48,739 nt of DNA from assembly GCA_020851635.1 (NCBI GenBank), contig JADZCJ010000093.1, positions 1-48,739 of the forward strand, in the 5' to 3' direction. Made by a program: the position numbers and the translations under genes. Positions 27,214 to 33,272 of the stretch are shown piece by piece. The stretch comes from Anaerolineae bacterium (lineage in GTDB: Bacteria; Chloroflexota; Anaerolineae; UBA4142; SHND01). The notes beneath the pieces are model-generated. The model was given only the letters and a program-made list of their open reading frames with translations, was not told the DNA's origin and did not search any database. Each line of letters opens with the position of its first letter. Position 1 is the stretch's first letter.

Positions 27214-28152
27214 ATGCGTCTATTTATCACGGGGGGCGCCGGTTTTATCGGCTCGCATTTGTGTGACTATTTTTTGGCGCGCGACCATCGCGTGATTGCG
27301 ATGGACAATTTTATTACCGGCAGCCCCGACAATATTGCTCATCTCGCCACCGAGCCCCGTTTCGAGTTTATCGAACAGGATGTGACAAAACACATTCATG
27401 TTCCGGGTGAGGTGGACGCCGTCTTGCACTTTGCTTCACCGGCGAGTCCAAAATCGTATCTGGATTATCCGATTCAGACGATGAAGGTCGGCGCGCTGGG
27501 GACGCATAATGCGCTGGGTGTGGCGCGTGCCAAAGGCGCGCGCTTTTTGTTGGCTTCGACTTCGGAGGTGTATGGCGACCCGCTGGTGCACCCGCAGCGT
27601 GAAGACTATTGGGGTAACGTCAATCCCGTCGGACCCCGCGGCGTATATGATGAGGCGAAACGTTTTGCCGAAGCGTTGACTCTGGCATATCACCGCCAGC
27701 ACGGCGTCCAGACGCGGATCGTCCGCATATTCAACACCTATGGTCCGCGCAATGCGCTGGATGACGGGCGCGTGGTGCCAAACTTTGTCGGACAGGCGCT
27801 GCGCGGCGAACCGTTGACGGTGCATGGAGATGGTTCACAGACGCGTTCGTTCACCTATGTCAGCGATTTGGTTGAGGGCATTGCGCGTCTTCTCATGTCC
27901 GAGGAAAATCTGCCCGTCAATATTGGCAACCCGAACGAAATGACCATCAAGACTTTTGCCGAACGCATCAACGCGATTACGGGCAACAAGGCGGGCATTA
28001 TTTTTACTCATCGCCCCGTTGATGATCCGTCGCGCCGCAACCCCGATATCACCAGGGCGCGCACGCTGCTGAATTGGGAACCGGTCGTTTCGTTGGACGC
28101 GGGTCTGGAAGAGACTATCGCGTATTTTGCAGAACGGATGCAAAAAGCATGA
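27214..28152 (+). CDS. UDP-glucuronate decarboxylase (UDP-xylose synthase)
   Basis: This 312-residue SDR enzyme converts UDP-glucuronate to UDP-xylose with NAD. It has [11 protein letters not shown] at the N-terminus, the family hallmark [34 protein letters not shown] with the catalytic Ser/Thr and Glu, and [10 protein letters not shown] with the Tyr/Lys pair. Length and motifs match bacterial UXS proteins. ATG at 27214 is preceded by GAGGA. It sits between two O-antigen-ligase genes, so xylose is a likely component of the local glycan. It would share UDP-GlcA with the epimerase at 18654. Confidence 0.92.
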
Positions 28153-28196
28153 TACGGGTCCTTGATGGACCGCTGTGTCACAAGAGTTGAAAGCGC

Positions 28197-29729
28197 GTGT
28201 CTTTTCTGCGAATCGAACGACGCACCACCCTCGCCCTCGCGGTCATTGTCTTGCTTGTCGCGTTCCTCTGGGCGCTGCTTTCCCTGACAAACGCGCTGCT
28301 CCTTGCGTTCGCGCTCGTTCTGGTGGGCGCGCTTGTCGCCGCCCCCGAGCTCGCTGTATATCTTTTGGTGTTTGCGGTCCCGTTCGGTTCGCTCCTGCCT
28401 CTGAATGTCGGCGGCGCAAACGTAACTGCGGCGGATGGACTCTTGCTGCTGGCGTGGGCGTTGTATTTGATGCGCGGCGTAGCCCGTCGAAAAATCGAGC
28501 TGCGCCCGCCACCGCTTGCTCTCCCGTTTCTCGCTTTTATCTTTGCTGCTGCGCTTTCCCTGACGGTTGCGCGCTCTTTGGCTGACAGCGTGCCCGAGCT
28601 GACCAAATGGATCGAATTGTTTGCCGCCTATTGGCTCGTCGCCCAATTCTTTGATGAAACGCGCGTCGAGCGCTTGCTGGCGGTCATGTTTTGTGCGGGG
28701 TTGGCGCAGGCGTTGTTGGGCGCATACCAGTATTATTTTCGCCTCGGACCCGAGGGCTTTTTGTTGTTTGGCGGCGCAAACCTGCGCGCCTTTGGAACGT
28801 TCGAACAACCCAACCCATTTGCGGGCTATCTTGGTCTGATTCTCCCATTGGCGCTGGGAACGGGATTGGGTATTCTGGTGACGTTTCTGCGCGGCAAACG
28901 CGGGACGGCGCCGGAGCGCCCGACAAACGCCCTTTCCTCACAAGGCATCACCTCCCGTCATCTGTGGTTGTTTGTGCTTGCAAGCGGTTCGTTGTTTGTC
29001 ATGCTCGCCGCATTACTCTTTTCGTATTCACGCGGGGCGTGGATTGGCGTCGCGGGGGCGCTGGGTGTGACGGCTGTGATGGTCCTGGTGCGCTCGAAAC
29101 GCGCCGTGACGCTGGCGCTGGGAATGGGGCTGGTGGGCGTAATTGTGATCGGGCTGGGCGAAATCAATCTGGTGCCCAACATCATTAGCGAGCGCTTTGC
29201 CACGGTCGGCGATTACTTGTCTTTTGAGGATGTGCGCGGGGTGCGCGCCAACGACGAAAATTTTGCGCTGGTGGAACGGCGCGCGCACTGGCAAGCGGCG
29301 CTGGGCATGTTCGAGGACTCGCCCTGGCTGGGCGTAGGTTTTGGAAATTATGCGGCTGCCTATCCCGCGTATGCCCTGCCCAGGTGGGATGATCCGTTGG
29401 GACACGCGCACAATTATTATTTGAATGTGCTGGCAGAGGCGGGCGCAATCGGGTTTATAATATACGTTGTTTTGTGGCTTGCCGTCTTTTGGAATGTGGG
29501 ACGCGCCGCGTTGGCGACCGGTGGCTGGCAGCAAGGTGTCGTGGCGGGCGGCTTGGGCGTTCTGGTGGCTTTGTCAATTCATAATTTCTTTGATAATCTG
29601 TTTGTCCATGCCATGTATCTGCAAGTTGGCATGACGTTGGGGCTGGTGGCTGTCTTGAGCGCAAATACATCCGACACGCCTGACAGGGGAATCGCCGGAG
29701 CTGACGTTTTGGAGGGATCTTTTGAATGA
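28197..29729 (+). CDS. O-antigen ligase family membrane protein
   Basis: This 510-residue polytopic protein has about twelve helices and Wzy/WaaL landmarks: GTFEQPNPFAGYLGLILPL, YSRGAWIGVAG, then in the large periplasmic loop RAHWQAALGMFEDSPWLGVG and GHAHNYYLNVLAEAG with the conserved His. It should join or polymerise lipid-linked glycans outside the cytoplasm. The start is GTG at 28197, 44 bp after UXS, with a weak ribosome-binding site. Its 3' end overlaps gtrA as ATGA. It resembles the ligase half of the fusion protein at 24383 but lacks a hydrolase domain. Confidence 0.85.
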   Translation: MSFLRIERRTTLALAVIVLLVAFLWALLSLTNALLLAFALVLVGALVAAPELAVYLLVFAVPFGSLLPLNVGGANVTAADGLLLLAWALYLMRGVARRKIELRPPPLALPFLAFIFAAALSLTVARSLADSVPELTKWIELFAAYWLVAQFFDETRVERLLAVMFCAGLAQALLGAYQYYFRLGPEGFLLFGGANLRAFGTFEQPNPFAGYLGLILPLALGTGLGILVTFLRGKRGTAPERPTNALSSQGITSRHLWLFVLASGSLFVMLAALLFSYSRGAWIGVAGALGVTAVMVLVRSKRAVTLALGMGLVGVIVIGLGEINLVPNIISERFATVGDYLSFEDVRGVRANDENFALVERRAHWQAALGMFEDSPWLGVGFGNYAAAYPAYALPRWDDPLGHAHNYYLNVLAEAGAIGFIIYVVLWLAVFWNVGRAALATGGWQQGVVAGGLGVLVALSIHNFFDNLFVHAMYLQVGMTLGLVAVLSANTSDTPDRGIAGADVLEGSFE

Positions 29730-30262
29730 CCGCCTTTTTTGACCGCGTAAACGCATTGGCGCCGCAGCGCATCAAAGCAGCGCATCCCGAAGTCAAACGC
29801 TTTATCAAGTTTGCCATGGTGGGCGGCTTTGGCGCCATTCTGGATGTGACCGTCTTGACCCTGCTCGTCTTTGCCTTTCATGTGCCGGACTATTTGGCGA
29901 ACCTGATTTCTGTCGGCTGCGCGGTGGTCAGCAATTTTACGTGGAATACTCTTTGGACCTTTCCCGAATCGCGCGGACAAAATAATCTGCACAAACATTT
30001 TGCCCAATTTCTTTTGGTGAACCTTGTCGGTCTGGGCATCAACGAATTGGTGTTTGTGCTGACGGACAAATTTCTGTTTGAACCCATCTTTGTGGCGCTC
30101 GGAATAAACCCATCTCTGGCAATTTACCCCTCCAAAATCTTTGCGATTGGGGTGGTGTTGTTTTGGAATTTTGGGATCAATCGCATTTGGACATACCGGC
30201 ATATCGAATTTGGCTCAGAGACACAGCACAGTCATGCGGAAGATTCCATTCCGCCGTTGTAG
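29726..30262 (+). CDS. GtrA family membrane protein
   Basis: This 178-residue protein has four transmembrane helices and the GtrA pattern RFIKFAMVGGFGAILDVTVL near the N-terminus and NFTWNTLWTFPES after the second helix. GtrA proteins are thought to flip or deliver polyprenyl-phosphate sugars. ATG overlaps the ligase stop codon by 4 bp, so translation is coupled. It closes the plus-strand glycan unit and is followed after 10 bp by an intrinsic terminator. Confidence 0.9.
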   Translation: MTAFFDRVNALAPQRIKAAHPEVKRFIKFAMVGGFGAILDVTVLTLLVFAFHVPDYLANLISVGCAVVSNFTWNTLWTFPESRGQNNLHKHFAQFLLVNLVGLGINELVFVLTDKFLFEPIFVALGINPSLAIYPSKIFAIGVVLFWNFGINRIWTYRHIEFGSETQHSHAEDSIPPL

Positions 30263-30272
30263 CGGAAAACAG

Positions 30273-30303
30273 AGAGCGTCCGACAACGGGCGCTCTTTTT
30301 TTT
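30273..30303 (+). terminator. Intrinsic terminator after gtrA
   Basis: A nine-pair stem (AGAGCGTCC with GGGCGCTCT, one G-T pair) and a 6-nt loop are followed by at least seven T residues from 30297. It ends the plus-strand glycan unit. Confidence 0.85.
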
Positions 30304-30328
30304 GTTTCACCCGAAATGGGCCGGGTTC

Positions 30329-30796
30329 TCACGGTAACACCTCAAAGGACGTTACCCGCCAGGAAATGTCATCGTCGGTGACGTTGGCTTGGTCGCGCGA
30401 AATCGTGGTCGGGTAGTGGTATTTCTCGTCAAAGGTGACCTTGAGTTGATATTTCGCGCTGTCGGGCGCATATGCGAGCGCCGTGTCAAACAGACCGTCT
30501 ACGGTAAACTTGTTGGGGTCAAATTCATTCACCTTGCATTCGCGCCCCTCAAACGGTGCCGGAATACACACCGCCGATTGTTCCGTGACAACGCCATCGC
30601 GCACCGTAACGGTGTTGGTCTGGGCGTGCCAGATAGAATCGACCTTGAGCACCGCGATGCGATAGTTGCGAATTTGTTTTTCGCCCCATTGTCTTTGTTT
30701 GGACGCGATCAATAAATCCGGTTCGGATGGTCCCGGCACTGTACAGCCGGCGAGCATTAAAATAAAGAGTAAAATCAACGGCACTCTATTTTGCAT
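30329..30796 (-). CDS. DUF6174-like lipoprotein
   Basis: This is a 155-residue exported lipoprotein: MQNRVPLILLFILMLAGC, with Cys18 in the lipobox. The mature part has IRNYRIAVLKVDSIWHAQTNTVTVRDGVV, then TVDGLFDTALAYA and a stretch ending in FDEKYHYPTTISRDQ. This pattern is seen in DUF6174 proteins of unknown function. I chose ATG at 30796 because the signal peptide starts there. A TTGCCT(16)TACAAT promoter-like sequence (30803-30830) ends only 6-7 bp before the ATG, so the mRNA may be leaderless. It is divergent from the MFS gene. Confidence 0.7.
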   Translation of the reverse strand: MQNRVPLILLFILMLAGCTVPGPSEPDLLIASKQRQWGEKQIRNYRIAVLKVDSIWHAQTNTVTVRDGVVTEQSAVCIPAPFEGRECKVNEFDPNKFTVDGLFDTALAYAPDSAKYQLKVTFDEKYHYPTTISRDQANVTDDDISWRVTSFEVLP

Positions 30797-30802
30797 AATG
30801 GG

Positions 30803-30830
30803 ATTGTATCGGGATGAACCGTTCAGGCAA
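30803..30830 (-). promoter_or_regulatory. Promoter-like sequence of the DUF6174-like lipoprotein gene
   Basis: On the minus strand TTGCCT (30830-30825), a 16-bp spacer and TACAAT (30808-30803) lie immediately before the ATG at 30796. The predicted start site falls on or next to the ATG. It overlaps the 5' end of the divergent MFS gene. Confidence 0.45.
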
Positions 30831-32136
30831 ATCGAATATGGCGCTGCGGGTCGAGTCATTACAACGCACGCTCAAACCACGACGCATCCTATCGTCCTGG
30901 ATGCCGATGGGTCAGGATGTCCAATCACAAAATGTCCGACGGGTATTGATTGACGGCATCGGCGTTGGCATTGCGGCGGCGGCGGCGCCCTATCTGCCCG
31001 TCTTTTTGGCGCGCTTGGGCGCGGACAATTTTGCGGTTGGGCTGCTTACCTCCATGCCCGCGCTGGCGGGTCTGATCTTTGCCATCCCGCTGGGACAATT
31101 TCTGGCGCGCCAAAAAAATATTGTGCCCTGGTATTCCCGTTCACGCTTTTTTGTTATATTGTGTTATGCGCTGACCGGTTTGGCGCCATTCTTGGTGCCA
31201 AACCAGGTGGTGTTGGGCATTTTGTTGATCTGGTTGTTTGCGACGGTTCCGCAGACGATTGTCAACCTGGGTTTTACGATTGTGATGGGCAGTGTGGCGG
31301 GACCGGAGGGGCGCTTGTATCTGATGAGCCGCCGGTGGTCCACCCTGGGGATCACGACGGCGATTGTGGTGGTGTTTGCCGGGATTGCGCTGGACCGGCT
31401 GCCCTTTCCATATAATTATCAGATCGTTTTCATTGTGCTCTCGCTGGGTGGTGTGCTCAGTTTTGCATTTTCAAGCCGCATCGAGCTGCCTGACCAGAAA
31501 ATGCCGCCGCGCCCGGTAGAGCGTCCTTCGCCGCTCAAAAACCTCAAGCGACTCACCGAGCAGCTGCGCGGCGAACCGCGCTTTATGCGGGTCATCAGCA
31601 GTCAGGTCGTCTACCGGTTTGGGTTGGCGTATGCGATTCCGCTCTTTCCGCTTTACTATGTGCGTGTTCTGAATGCAAGCGATGAAGCCATCGGACTGAT
31701 TGTCACCGTGCAGGGCGCGGTCCTTCTGGTCGCCTATTATGTCTGGGCGCGTGTGACCAAATTGCGCGGGGTGCGCTTTGCGCTGCTCGTAACCACGCTC
31801 GCCGTCGCGTTTTATCCGATCATCCTAGCGTTTACGACCCAGATCCCCGCGGTCATCGTTCTGAGCGGGCTGGCGGCGATCTTTGCGGCGGGCATTGACC
31901 TGATCTTTTTCGATATCGTGGTGTCGAGTTATCCTCAGCAAGAAGCAGCTACATTTGTCGGCGTCCAGCAGGAGACCGTGTATCTGGTCTCGTTCATCGC
32001 GCCGTTTGTGGCGACCGCGGTGGCGACGGCGGTCAGCATCCCGTTTTCGCTGGTGGTCGCGGGCTTGATTCGCCTTGCCGGCTTTGGCATGTTTGTTGTT
32101 TTTTCAAGAGACGAAAGCAATTTACCCAATCCATGA
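30814..32136 (+). CDS. Major facilitator superfamily transporter
   Basis: This 440-residue protein has about twelve hydrophobic segments in the MFS 6+6 arrangement. The N-terminal half holds DGIGVGIAAAAAPYLPVFLARLGADNFAVGLL and the central cytoplasmic loop is RIELPDQKMPPRPVERPSPLKNLKRL. The substrate is unknown. ATG at 30814 lies only 17 bp from the divergent lipoprotein start and has no clear ribosome-binding site. ATG at 30838 or 30901 would leave more room for a promoter and would keep all helices. Its stop overlaps the following channel-like gene as ATGA, so the two are co-translated. Confidence 0.8.
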   Translation: MNRSGKSNMALRVESLQRTLKPRRILSSWMPMGQDVQSQNVRRVLIDGIGVGIAAAAAPYLPVFLARLGADNFAVGLLTSMPALAGLIFAIPLGQFLARQKNIVPWYSRSRFFVILCYALTGLAPFLVPNQVVLGILLIWLFATVPQTIVNLGFTIVMGSVAGPEGRLYLMSRRWSTLGITTAIVVVFAGIALDRLPFPYNYQIVFIVLSLGGVLSFAFSSRIELPDQKMPPRPVERPSPLKNLKRLTEQLRGEPRFMRVISSQVVYRFGLAYAIPLFPLYYVRVLNASDEAIGLIVTVQGAVLLVAYYVWARVTKLRGVRFALLVTTLAVAFYPIILAFTTQIPAVIVLSGLAAIFAAGIDLIFFDIVVSSYPQQEAATFVGVQQETVYLVSFIAPFVATAVATAVSIPFSLVVAGLIRLAGFGMFVVFSRDESNLPNP

Positions 32137-33272
32137 GTGTCCCCGAGCAACCCCCGCCTGCGCCCAAGAATCCGTCCCGCTGGTATGTGGGTTCGGCAGT
32201 GGTCGCGCTGGTTTTTCTCGCGCTGATTATCATTGTGTGGAATCGCGAATACAACACGCCTGCGCCGCTCTTTCCCGGCGAAAGCGTAATGCGCCGTCAG
32301 GAGGATGTGACGCGCTTTATGCGCGAGAATTTGCCGCCGGATGTTGCCGGAGACGCGTTGTTCATTCCGACCGGCGTCGTCATCCAGACCCTTGAATTCA
32401 AAGGTCCCTATACGGTGCAGGCGGGCGGGTATATTTGGCAAAAGTATCCGGACGAATATCCGCCCCTGGATCACGGGTTTGTGTTTGCAGAAGCCGAGTC
32501 CACGACTTTTACCAAGGTGTACGAGACCCATCAGGATGGAGAGACCCTGGTCGGCTGGAATTTCAAAACAACTCTGCGCGAAAAGTTTGACTATTCCAAA
32601 TATCCGCTGGACCGCCAGCTCTTGTGGCTGCGCTTGTGGCATGTGGAATTTGAAAAAGATGTGTATCTGGTTCCGGACATTGCCGGATACGATTCGTTAG
32701 CGCCAGGCGCGACTCCCGGATTGGACGAGGGGCTGGTGCTGGAAAATTGGGAACTGGGCAGCAGTTATTTCAGTTTTCGTCTCAATGCCTATAATTCGAA
32801 TTTTGGCATTCAAGGGTACAACAGCGCCGAGAGTCTCCCCGAGCTTTATTTCAATGTGCCCATCCAACGCTATATCCTCAGCCCGCTCGTCGCGCGCGGG
32901 ATTGCGCCGCTGGTCATCCTGATTCAACTGTTTGTGATTGTGATGGTGATCGGGAGCAATTCCAAGCGGTTGGAGCAATTTGGGGTCCGTCCGGGCGCCG
33001 TCATCTTTACGTGCGCGGCTTTCTTTTTTGCCATTCTGCTGGCGCAAAACGCGCTGCGCGATGAGGTAAAGTGGTATGGGGTGGTATATTTGGAAATGGT
33101 GCATGTGCTGACTTATTTTGTCATTCTTGCCGTCGCCGCCAATTCCGTCGCGCTGGTCGCCAATCCCGATTGGGGCTTGTTTGGACAGGACAATCTGTGG
33201 GTCGAAGTGCTTTACTGGCCCCTGATCCTTGGGATTCTATTGGTGATTACCTTGCTGATCTTTGGATGGTAG
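32133..33272 (+). CDS. Pentameric ligand-gated ion-channel-like (Cys-loop-fold) membrane protein
   Basis: This is a 379-residue protein of no obvious annotated family. The layout is one N-terminal helix (17-36), an outside beta-rich region (40-245) and four closely spaced helices (about 248-273, 285-306, 313-340, 355-378). The end of the outer domain reads LVGWNFKTTLREKFDYSKYPLDRQLLWLRL in two parts. YPLDRQ (157-162) matches the YP(F/L)DxQ Cys-loop signature of prokaryotic channels such as GLIC. Helix 1 follows PIQRYILSPLVARGIAPLVIL with the expected Arg and Pro259, and helix 3 begins WYGVVYLEMVHVLTYFV, like GLIC M3. There is no Cys pair in the loop, as in bacterial members. Odd points are the extra N-terminal helix with a 60-80 residue insertion that may be Cache-like, and a Phe-rich helix 2. 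It overlaps the MFS gene by ATGA. The channel role is inferred. Confidence 0.65.
   Translation: MSVPEQPPPAPKNPSRWYVGSAVVALVFLALIIIVWNREYNTPAPLFPGESVMRRQEDVTRFMRENLPPDVAGDALFIPTGVVIQTLEFKGPYTVQAGGYIWQKYPDEYPPLDHGFVFAEAESTTFTKVYETHQDGETLVGWNFKTTLREKFDYSKYPLDRQLLWLRLWHVEFEKDVYLVPDIAGYDSLAPGATPGLDEGLVLENWELGSSYFSFRLNAYNSNFGIQGYNSAESLPELYFNVPIQRYILSPLVARGIAPLVILIQLFVIVMVIGSNSKRLEQFGVRPGAVIFTCAAFFFAILLAQNALRDEVKWYGVVYLEMVHVLTYFVILAVAANSVALVANPDWGLFGQDNLWVEVLYWPLILGILLVITLLIFGW

Follow-up and report, generated by a model that had tools for sequence, protein, structure and literature searches.

A divergent Pro-loop receptor homologue with an extra N-terminal membrane helix in Chloroflexota

Does a protein that no family model recognises belong to the pentameric ligand-gated ion channels (pLGICs), and if so, does it act as a channel? 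The question is raised by a gene at 32133..33272 (+ strand) of the window, the whole 48,739-nucleotide stretch of Anaerolineae DNA analysed here. A first-pass annotation had given its 379-aa product a Cys-loop-type receptor fold and offered two interpretations: an undescribed branch of ligand-gated channels, or a sensor that reuses the fold. Searches against Pfam and NCBIfam returned no credible match to the protein, and the Pfam Neur_chan models do not match it. CclA_1 and similar weak Pfam matches (E 0.019) failed the cut-off and were set aside as chance. A PDB search with the single sequence gave two matches only, both to GABA-A beta1 at the Pro-loop and not significant (E 0.5). The gene is under purifying selection (dN/dS 0.11-0.32 among five genus members), and we therefore regard it as real and functional.

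Relatives, homology and predicted fold

A tblastn search recovered four Chloroflexota loci at 58-65% identity, from the genus of the window; four of five other genomes of that genus carry the gene. Two further groups, from another Chloroflexota class, share about 30% identity: f26, with proteins of ~720 aa, and f79, with proteins of about 440-480 aa that often occur as two per genome. Among plasmids we found a homologue in Acaryochloris marina (30% identity over 93% of the query), annotated 'hypothetical protein', and another in Vibrio sp. (25% identity). Viral contigs, also searched, held no relatives.

Profiles tie this family to known pLGICs. Among the 60 PDB matches listed for profile A2 there were pLGICs only (best E 0.005), and profile A4, to which the plasmid relatives had been added, reached a best E of 0.0019. 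Aligned by hhalign with 13 canonical prokaryotic pLGICs including GLIC (the Gloeobacter proton-gated channel), A4 scored a probability of 99.2 and E 1.2e-19 over 284 columns (residues 76-378), which span the whole extracellular domain (ECD) and membrane domain. A bridging protein in genome G326 matches both A2 (E 9.2e-7) and the NCBIfam model LGIC_1 (E 1.8e-12). Two PBP-I-fused pLGICs, L034 and L035, were reached by profile A1, and L034 is itself matched by Neur_chan_memb (2.2e-5), TIGR00860 and LGIC_1. The GLIC sequence in our direct GLIC alignments should be taken as approximate; the PDB profile searches are independent of it. By the hhalign alignment, the PDB profiles and the G326 bridge, the protein is homologous in sequence to known members of the superfamily.

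We built an AlphaFold2 model of the single chain on alignment A2 (28 relatives), with pLDDT 88.6 and pTM 0.82. Behind an N-terminal helix, TM0 (residues 14-41), it has the topology of a pLGIC: an extracellular beta-sandwich (residues 76-246, 32358..32870, delimited by the model and hhalign) and the four closely spaced C-terminal helices that had been expected. These are M1 (249-274, 32877..32954), M2 (287-312, 32991..33068), M3 (319-343, 33087..33161) and M4 (355-376, 33195..33260), all on the + strand. GLIC headed the VIA-align ranking with Z 20.1, model residues 69-377 aligning to GLIC 9-315 over 272 residues at 2.7 A; GluCl, GlyR, GABA-A and ELIC were also among the matches. All 1000 aligned chains had Z >= 8, and the top ranks were pLGICs only. 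The best Foldseek match was the GABA-A rho1 receptor (E 7.5e-14). The receptor fold proposed at the outset is thus borne out by the GLIC match and, independently, by the profiles: the structure search put a pLGIC on top and no other family as best match, and the four helices correspond to those of pLGIC subunits along the full length. We are close to certain that the protein is a divergent pLGIC by homology and fold, and the proposal of a channel branch or a fold-reusing sensor is supported to that extent. The ligand-gated ion channels of animal synapses are distant relatives of its family.

Signature residues and the predicted pore

We counted conservation over 29 sequences and compared it with the signature table of PMC4795631. 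The Pro of the beta6-beta7 loop motif [F/Y]PxD is absolutely conserved in the superfamily (PMC4795631); here the motif is YPLD (residues 157-160, 32601..32612, + strand), with F/Y and P in 29/29 sequences, D in 28/29 and E in 1/29. The longer string YPLDRQ (residues 157-162) had been placed at the end of the outer beta-rich region. It is present, but lies mid-ECD in the beta6-beta7 Pro loop, and the domain runs on to about residue 246. The beta-9 core Trp, found in 71% of pLGICs with F/Y otherwise (PMC4795631), is W206 (32748..32750, + strand; 29/29), and the pre-M1 Arg, found in 94% (PMC4795631), is R246 (32868..32870, + strand; 29/29); both align to their GLIC counterparts. A conserved Arg and Pro had been noted at the start of the first C-terminal helix, and R246 and P251 (28/29) confirm this. 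Further, family-specific invariants include W142, P181, G196, F213, R309, E321 in M3 (29/29) and W362-P363 in M4 (29/29).

Other hallmarks are shifted or missing. The M1 14' Pro, frequent in pLGICs (77%) and not strictly defining (PMC4795631), has its nearest counterpart in P259, which follows R246 by 13 residues where the GLIC equivalent follows by 12. It is thus displaced by one residue, and a Pro in M1 is not general in the family: 5/29 sequences have it in the P259 column and 9/29 in the neighbouring one. The M2-M3 loop Pro is present in 88% of pLGICs and absent from 12%, and so is not defining (PMC4795631); the aligned position here is V312/K313, with Pro in at most 1/29 sequences. The Cys pair that flanks the loop in strict Cys-loop receptors, which prokaryotic members generally do not have (PMC4795631), is likewise missing, the sole Cys being C294. 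Because of this, the label 'Cys-loop' should read 'Pro-loop'.

M2 is very hydrophobic and, as the first-pass annotation had noted, Phe-rich, with Phe at 292 and 297-299. This places a Phe cluster, within about one residue, at the expected position of the hydrophobic 9' gate. The register is approximate and varies with the aligner: 9' falls at residue 295 with HMMER, at 294 when hhalign compares GLIC only, and at 298-299 when it compares the 13 pLGICs with the M3 acidic residue as anchor. The helix ends of the model (287-312) and the M3 acidic residue E321 favour F298 or F299 as the probable 9' residue. These two columns hold F/L in 28/29 and 29/29 sequences, respectively; in known pLGICs, 9' is Leu in 75% and Phe in 13% (PMC4795631). 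It would follow that the invariant R309 (33057..33059, + strand; 29/29) lies at about 19' or 20'. At the inner mouth we see no obvious charged ring of the type usual in pLGICs.

The N-terminal helix and its variants

Two additions to the canonical plan had been claimed, an extra N-terminal helix and an insertion of 60-80 residues at about 40-110. The helix is there: TM0 (32172..32255, + strand) is seen in hydropathy and in the model. The insertion is absent, since the GLIC match begins at residue 69-72, equivalent to GLIC 9-12, and residues 76-110 form the ordinary first ECD strands. The sole large addition relative to GLIC is what precedes about residue 69, namely TM0 followed by a linker of ~30 residues that contains one helix (together about 14-72). 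We drew the linker at residues 42-75 (32256..32357, + strand); it is mostly unmatched in GLIC and has its short helix at 56-66 in the model.

We considered a cleaved signal peptide for TM0 and ruled it out. In f26 and f79 the aligned helix is internal, always behind two earlier helices, and TM0 is therefore very probably a retained membrane helix. With two helices before it, the ECD stays outside, and in family members the ECD is preceded by an odd number of membrane-spanning helices. A single helix is found in the window's genus and also in Acaryochloris; f79 proteins have three, and f26 and Vibrio share the arrangement TM-dCache-TM-TM0. Within Chloroflexota, each of the three architectures forms one clade with 99-100% bootstrap support, in a tree whose arbitrary root leaves the order of change unfixed; loss of the Cache domain is no more than plausible. 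An AlphaFold2 model of a full Cache protein (P0003) reached pLDDT 57.9 with only eight alignment rows, and we did not rely on it. One Cache-pLGIC gene (L013/L014, G198:C12:146837-147903) has a frameshift between M2 and M3, either a pseudogene or an assembly error.

Compared with GLIC, the window protein shares the ECD beta-sandwich, the four-helix membrane domain, [FY]PxD, the beta-9 Trp and the pre-M1 Arg. The two proteins are 14% identical, and the window protein differs in having TM0, in the greater length of its M1-M2 linker and of its loop F (PD..Y..PG motif), and in lacking the M2-M3 Pro. DeCLIC also has an extra N-terminal part; that addition is two soluble beta lobes (PMC9897478), whereas here it is a membrane helix. 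Prokaryotic pLGICs fused to Cache, MCP-N and PBP-I domains were described in 2004 (Tasneem et al. 2004, PMC549065), among them Cache-fused proteins from Methanosarcina, Cytophaga and Microbulbifer. Like the Cache/MCP-N-fused ART-LGICs of that work, the f26 and Vibrio relatives carry dCache_1 before the same channel module, with a TM-TM0 pair between Cache and ECD; the window protein differs in that Pfam finds no Cache domain in it. The PBP-I-fused proteins (PMC549065; L034 and L035 here) have the channel module in common with the family. They differ in that L034 is detected by the standard models named above and in the lack of a TM0 to separate sensor from ECD.

Cache fusion to pLGICs is thus already known, and the protein described here adds a variation to that type. 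In the open-licence literature we found no pLGIC with an extra N-terminal membrane helix and no Chloroflexota pLGIC, although subscription papers may hold one. We know of no solved structure with a fifth membrane helix per pLGIC subunit. The TM-dCache-TM-TM0, three-helix and single-helix forms make up a natural series in which one may ask how a channel of neurotransmitter-receptor type gained, or lost, a chemoreceptor sensor. More tentatively, and with somewhat less than even confidence, we suggest a separate pLGIC branch (Chloroflexota, a cyanobacterial plasmid and Vibrio plasmids) with 5, 7 or Cache+7 helices per subunit and a cytoplasmic N-terminus. Its pentamer would contain 25 or 35 helices, the extra ones as a further layer, and input would reach the pore from the helices at the N-terminus or from a Cache domain of chemoreceptor type. 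One lineage would be tied to K+/H+ homeostasis. Pfam and NCBIfam models miss the branch entirely, so counts of prokaryotic pLGICs are too low.

Channel or sensor, and the gene neighbourhood

We favour, with a probability of roughly 0.7 (0.72), the reading that the window protein is a subunit of a homopentameric ligand-gated channel, from a divergent pLGIC/Pro-loop branch with TM0, gated through the ECD. Homology, fold, conserved coupling residues and the internal place of TM0 in relatives were computed here; five-fold assembly, ligand gating and conduction we infer. In such a channel, TM0 would take the chain out across the membrane, and the outer beta-sandwich would sense a small molecule or ion. 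Motion could be relayed through D160 of the Pro loop, pre-M1 R246 and the M2-M3 region (R309, E321) to M2, where a ring of Phe/Leu side chains would open and ions pass. The dCache before TM0 in relatives probably adds a second ligand input, which the window's genus, without dCache, would not have.

The lack of the M2-M3 Pro in at least 28/29 sequences, the hydrophobic, Phe-rich M2, the want of the usual charged ring and the shifted M1 Pro count against a channel. The first two of these are also grounds for the main rival, a non-conducting sensor with its pore shut that reuses the pLGIC fold and, by way of TM0 or its membrane part, hands ligand binding on to another protein, for example the MFS protein encoded close by. 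The added TM0 fits such a sensor, as does the Cache domain of relatives with its TM hairpin, as in chemoreceptors. We nevertheless think it unlikely: the main coupling residues are retained, small residues near 6' with F/L near 9' resemble a normal closed gate, the cytoplasmic side has no attached output domain, and at locus L004 no MFS gene adjoins. That locus also tells against a role as accessory subunit, or regulator, of the MFS transporter, in which the pLGIC fold would be a membrane scaffold only. The 4-nt overlap in the window and the MFS -> pLGIC order in most genus loci speak for this role, but the partner is not constant, as other families have different neighbours, K+/H+ antiporter and TRAP transporter genes among them, and we consider it very improbable. 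Least credible is a superficial resemblance, in which a convergent beta domain and four helices mimic a pLGIC. The miss by the Neur_chan models and the E of 0.5 in the single-sequence search would suit it, yet profile, profile-profile, bridging sequences and structure are all concordant. The PDB profile matches, the GLIC structural match and the hhalign alignment exclude chance resemblance, and the full-length alignment (E 1.2e-19) together with Z 20 effectively refutes this explanation.

The MFS transporter gene lies at 30814..32136 (+ strand; MFS_1 8.8e-18), and the channel start codon overlaps its stop (ATGA, 32133-32136). Co-translation with an MFS carrier, claimed earlier, is compatible with this 4-nt overlap in the window; the MFS gene precedes the channel gene in four of the five genus loci examined, L004 being the one without it, and the overlap is not universal. 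In f79 (four species) a gene for a KefB/C-like K+/H+ antiporter (CPA2) with an RCK domain/TrkA_N comes after the channel gene, a neighbour that suits an ion-handling role. The physiological roles of prokaryotic pLGICs are mostly unknown; the K+ transporter genes alongside the channel in this one family point to such a role, which can be tested. In G214, TRAP transporter genes lie downstream of the channel. The neighbours differ by lineage, and so hint at ion or solute physiology and fix no ligand.

Several minor features of these loci may be recorded. Two f79 loci (L055:19-5376 and L056:783-6537) hold the antiporter, a permease whose only PDB match is a weak one to KimA, and a divergently placed adenine deaminase-like gene. 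An HTH_67/SCO6745-like gene (L060:6097-6987) adjoins the channel gene in three genus members and is not adjacent in the window. On Vibrio plasmids, the gene for an ABC amino-acid-type permease-like membrane protein without a Pfam match (L073:3277-3900) overlaps the Cache-pLGIC start by 4 nt. A tandem pair of canonical pLGIC genes (L075:126-2319, G476) possibly encodes heteromer subunits, and one channel with two solute-binding proteins was noticed in passing. Upstream in the window (27214-30859) are NAD-epimerase, O-antigen-ligase-like, GtrA-like and DUF6174 lipoprotein genes, in an order kept in several genus members.
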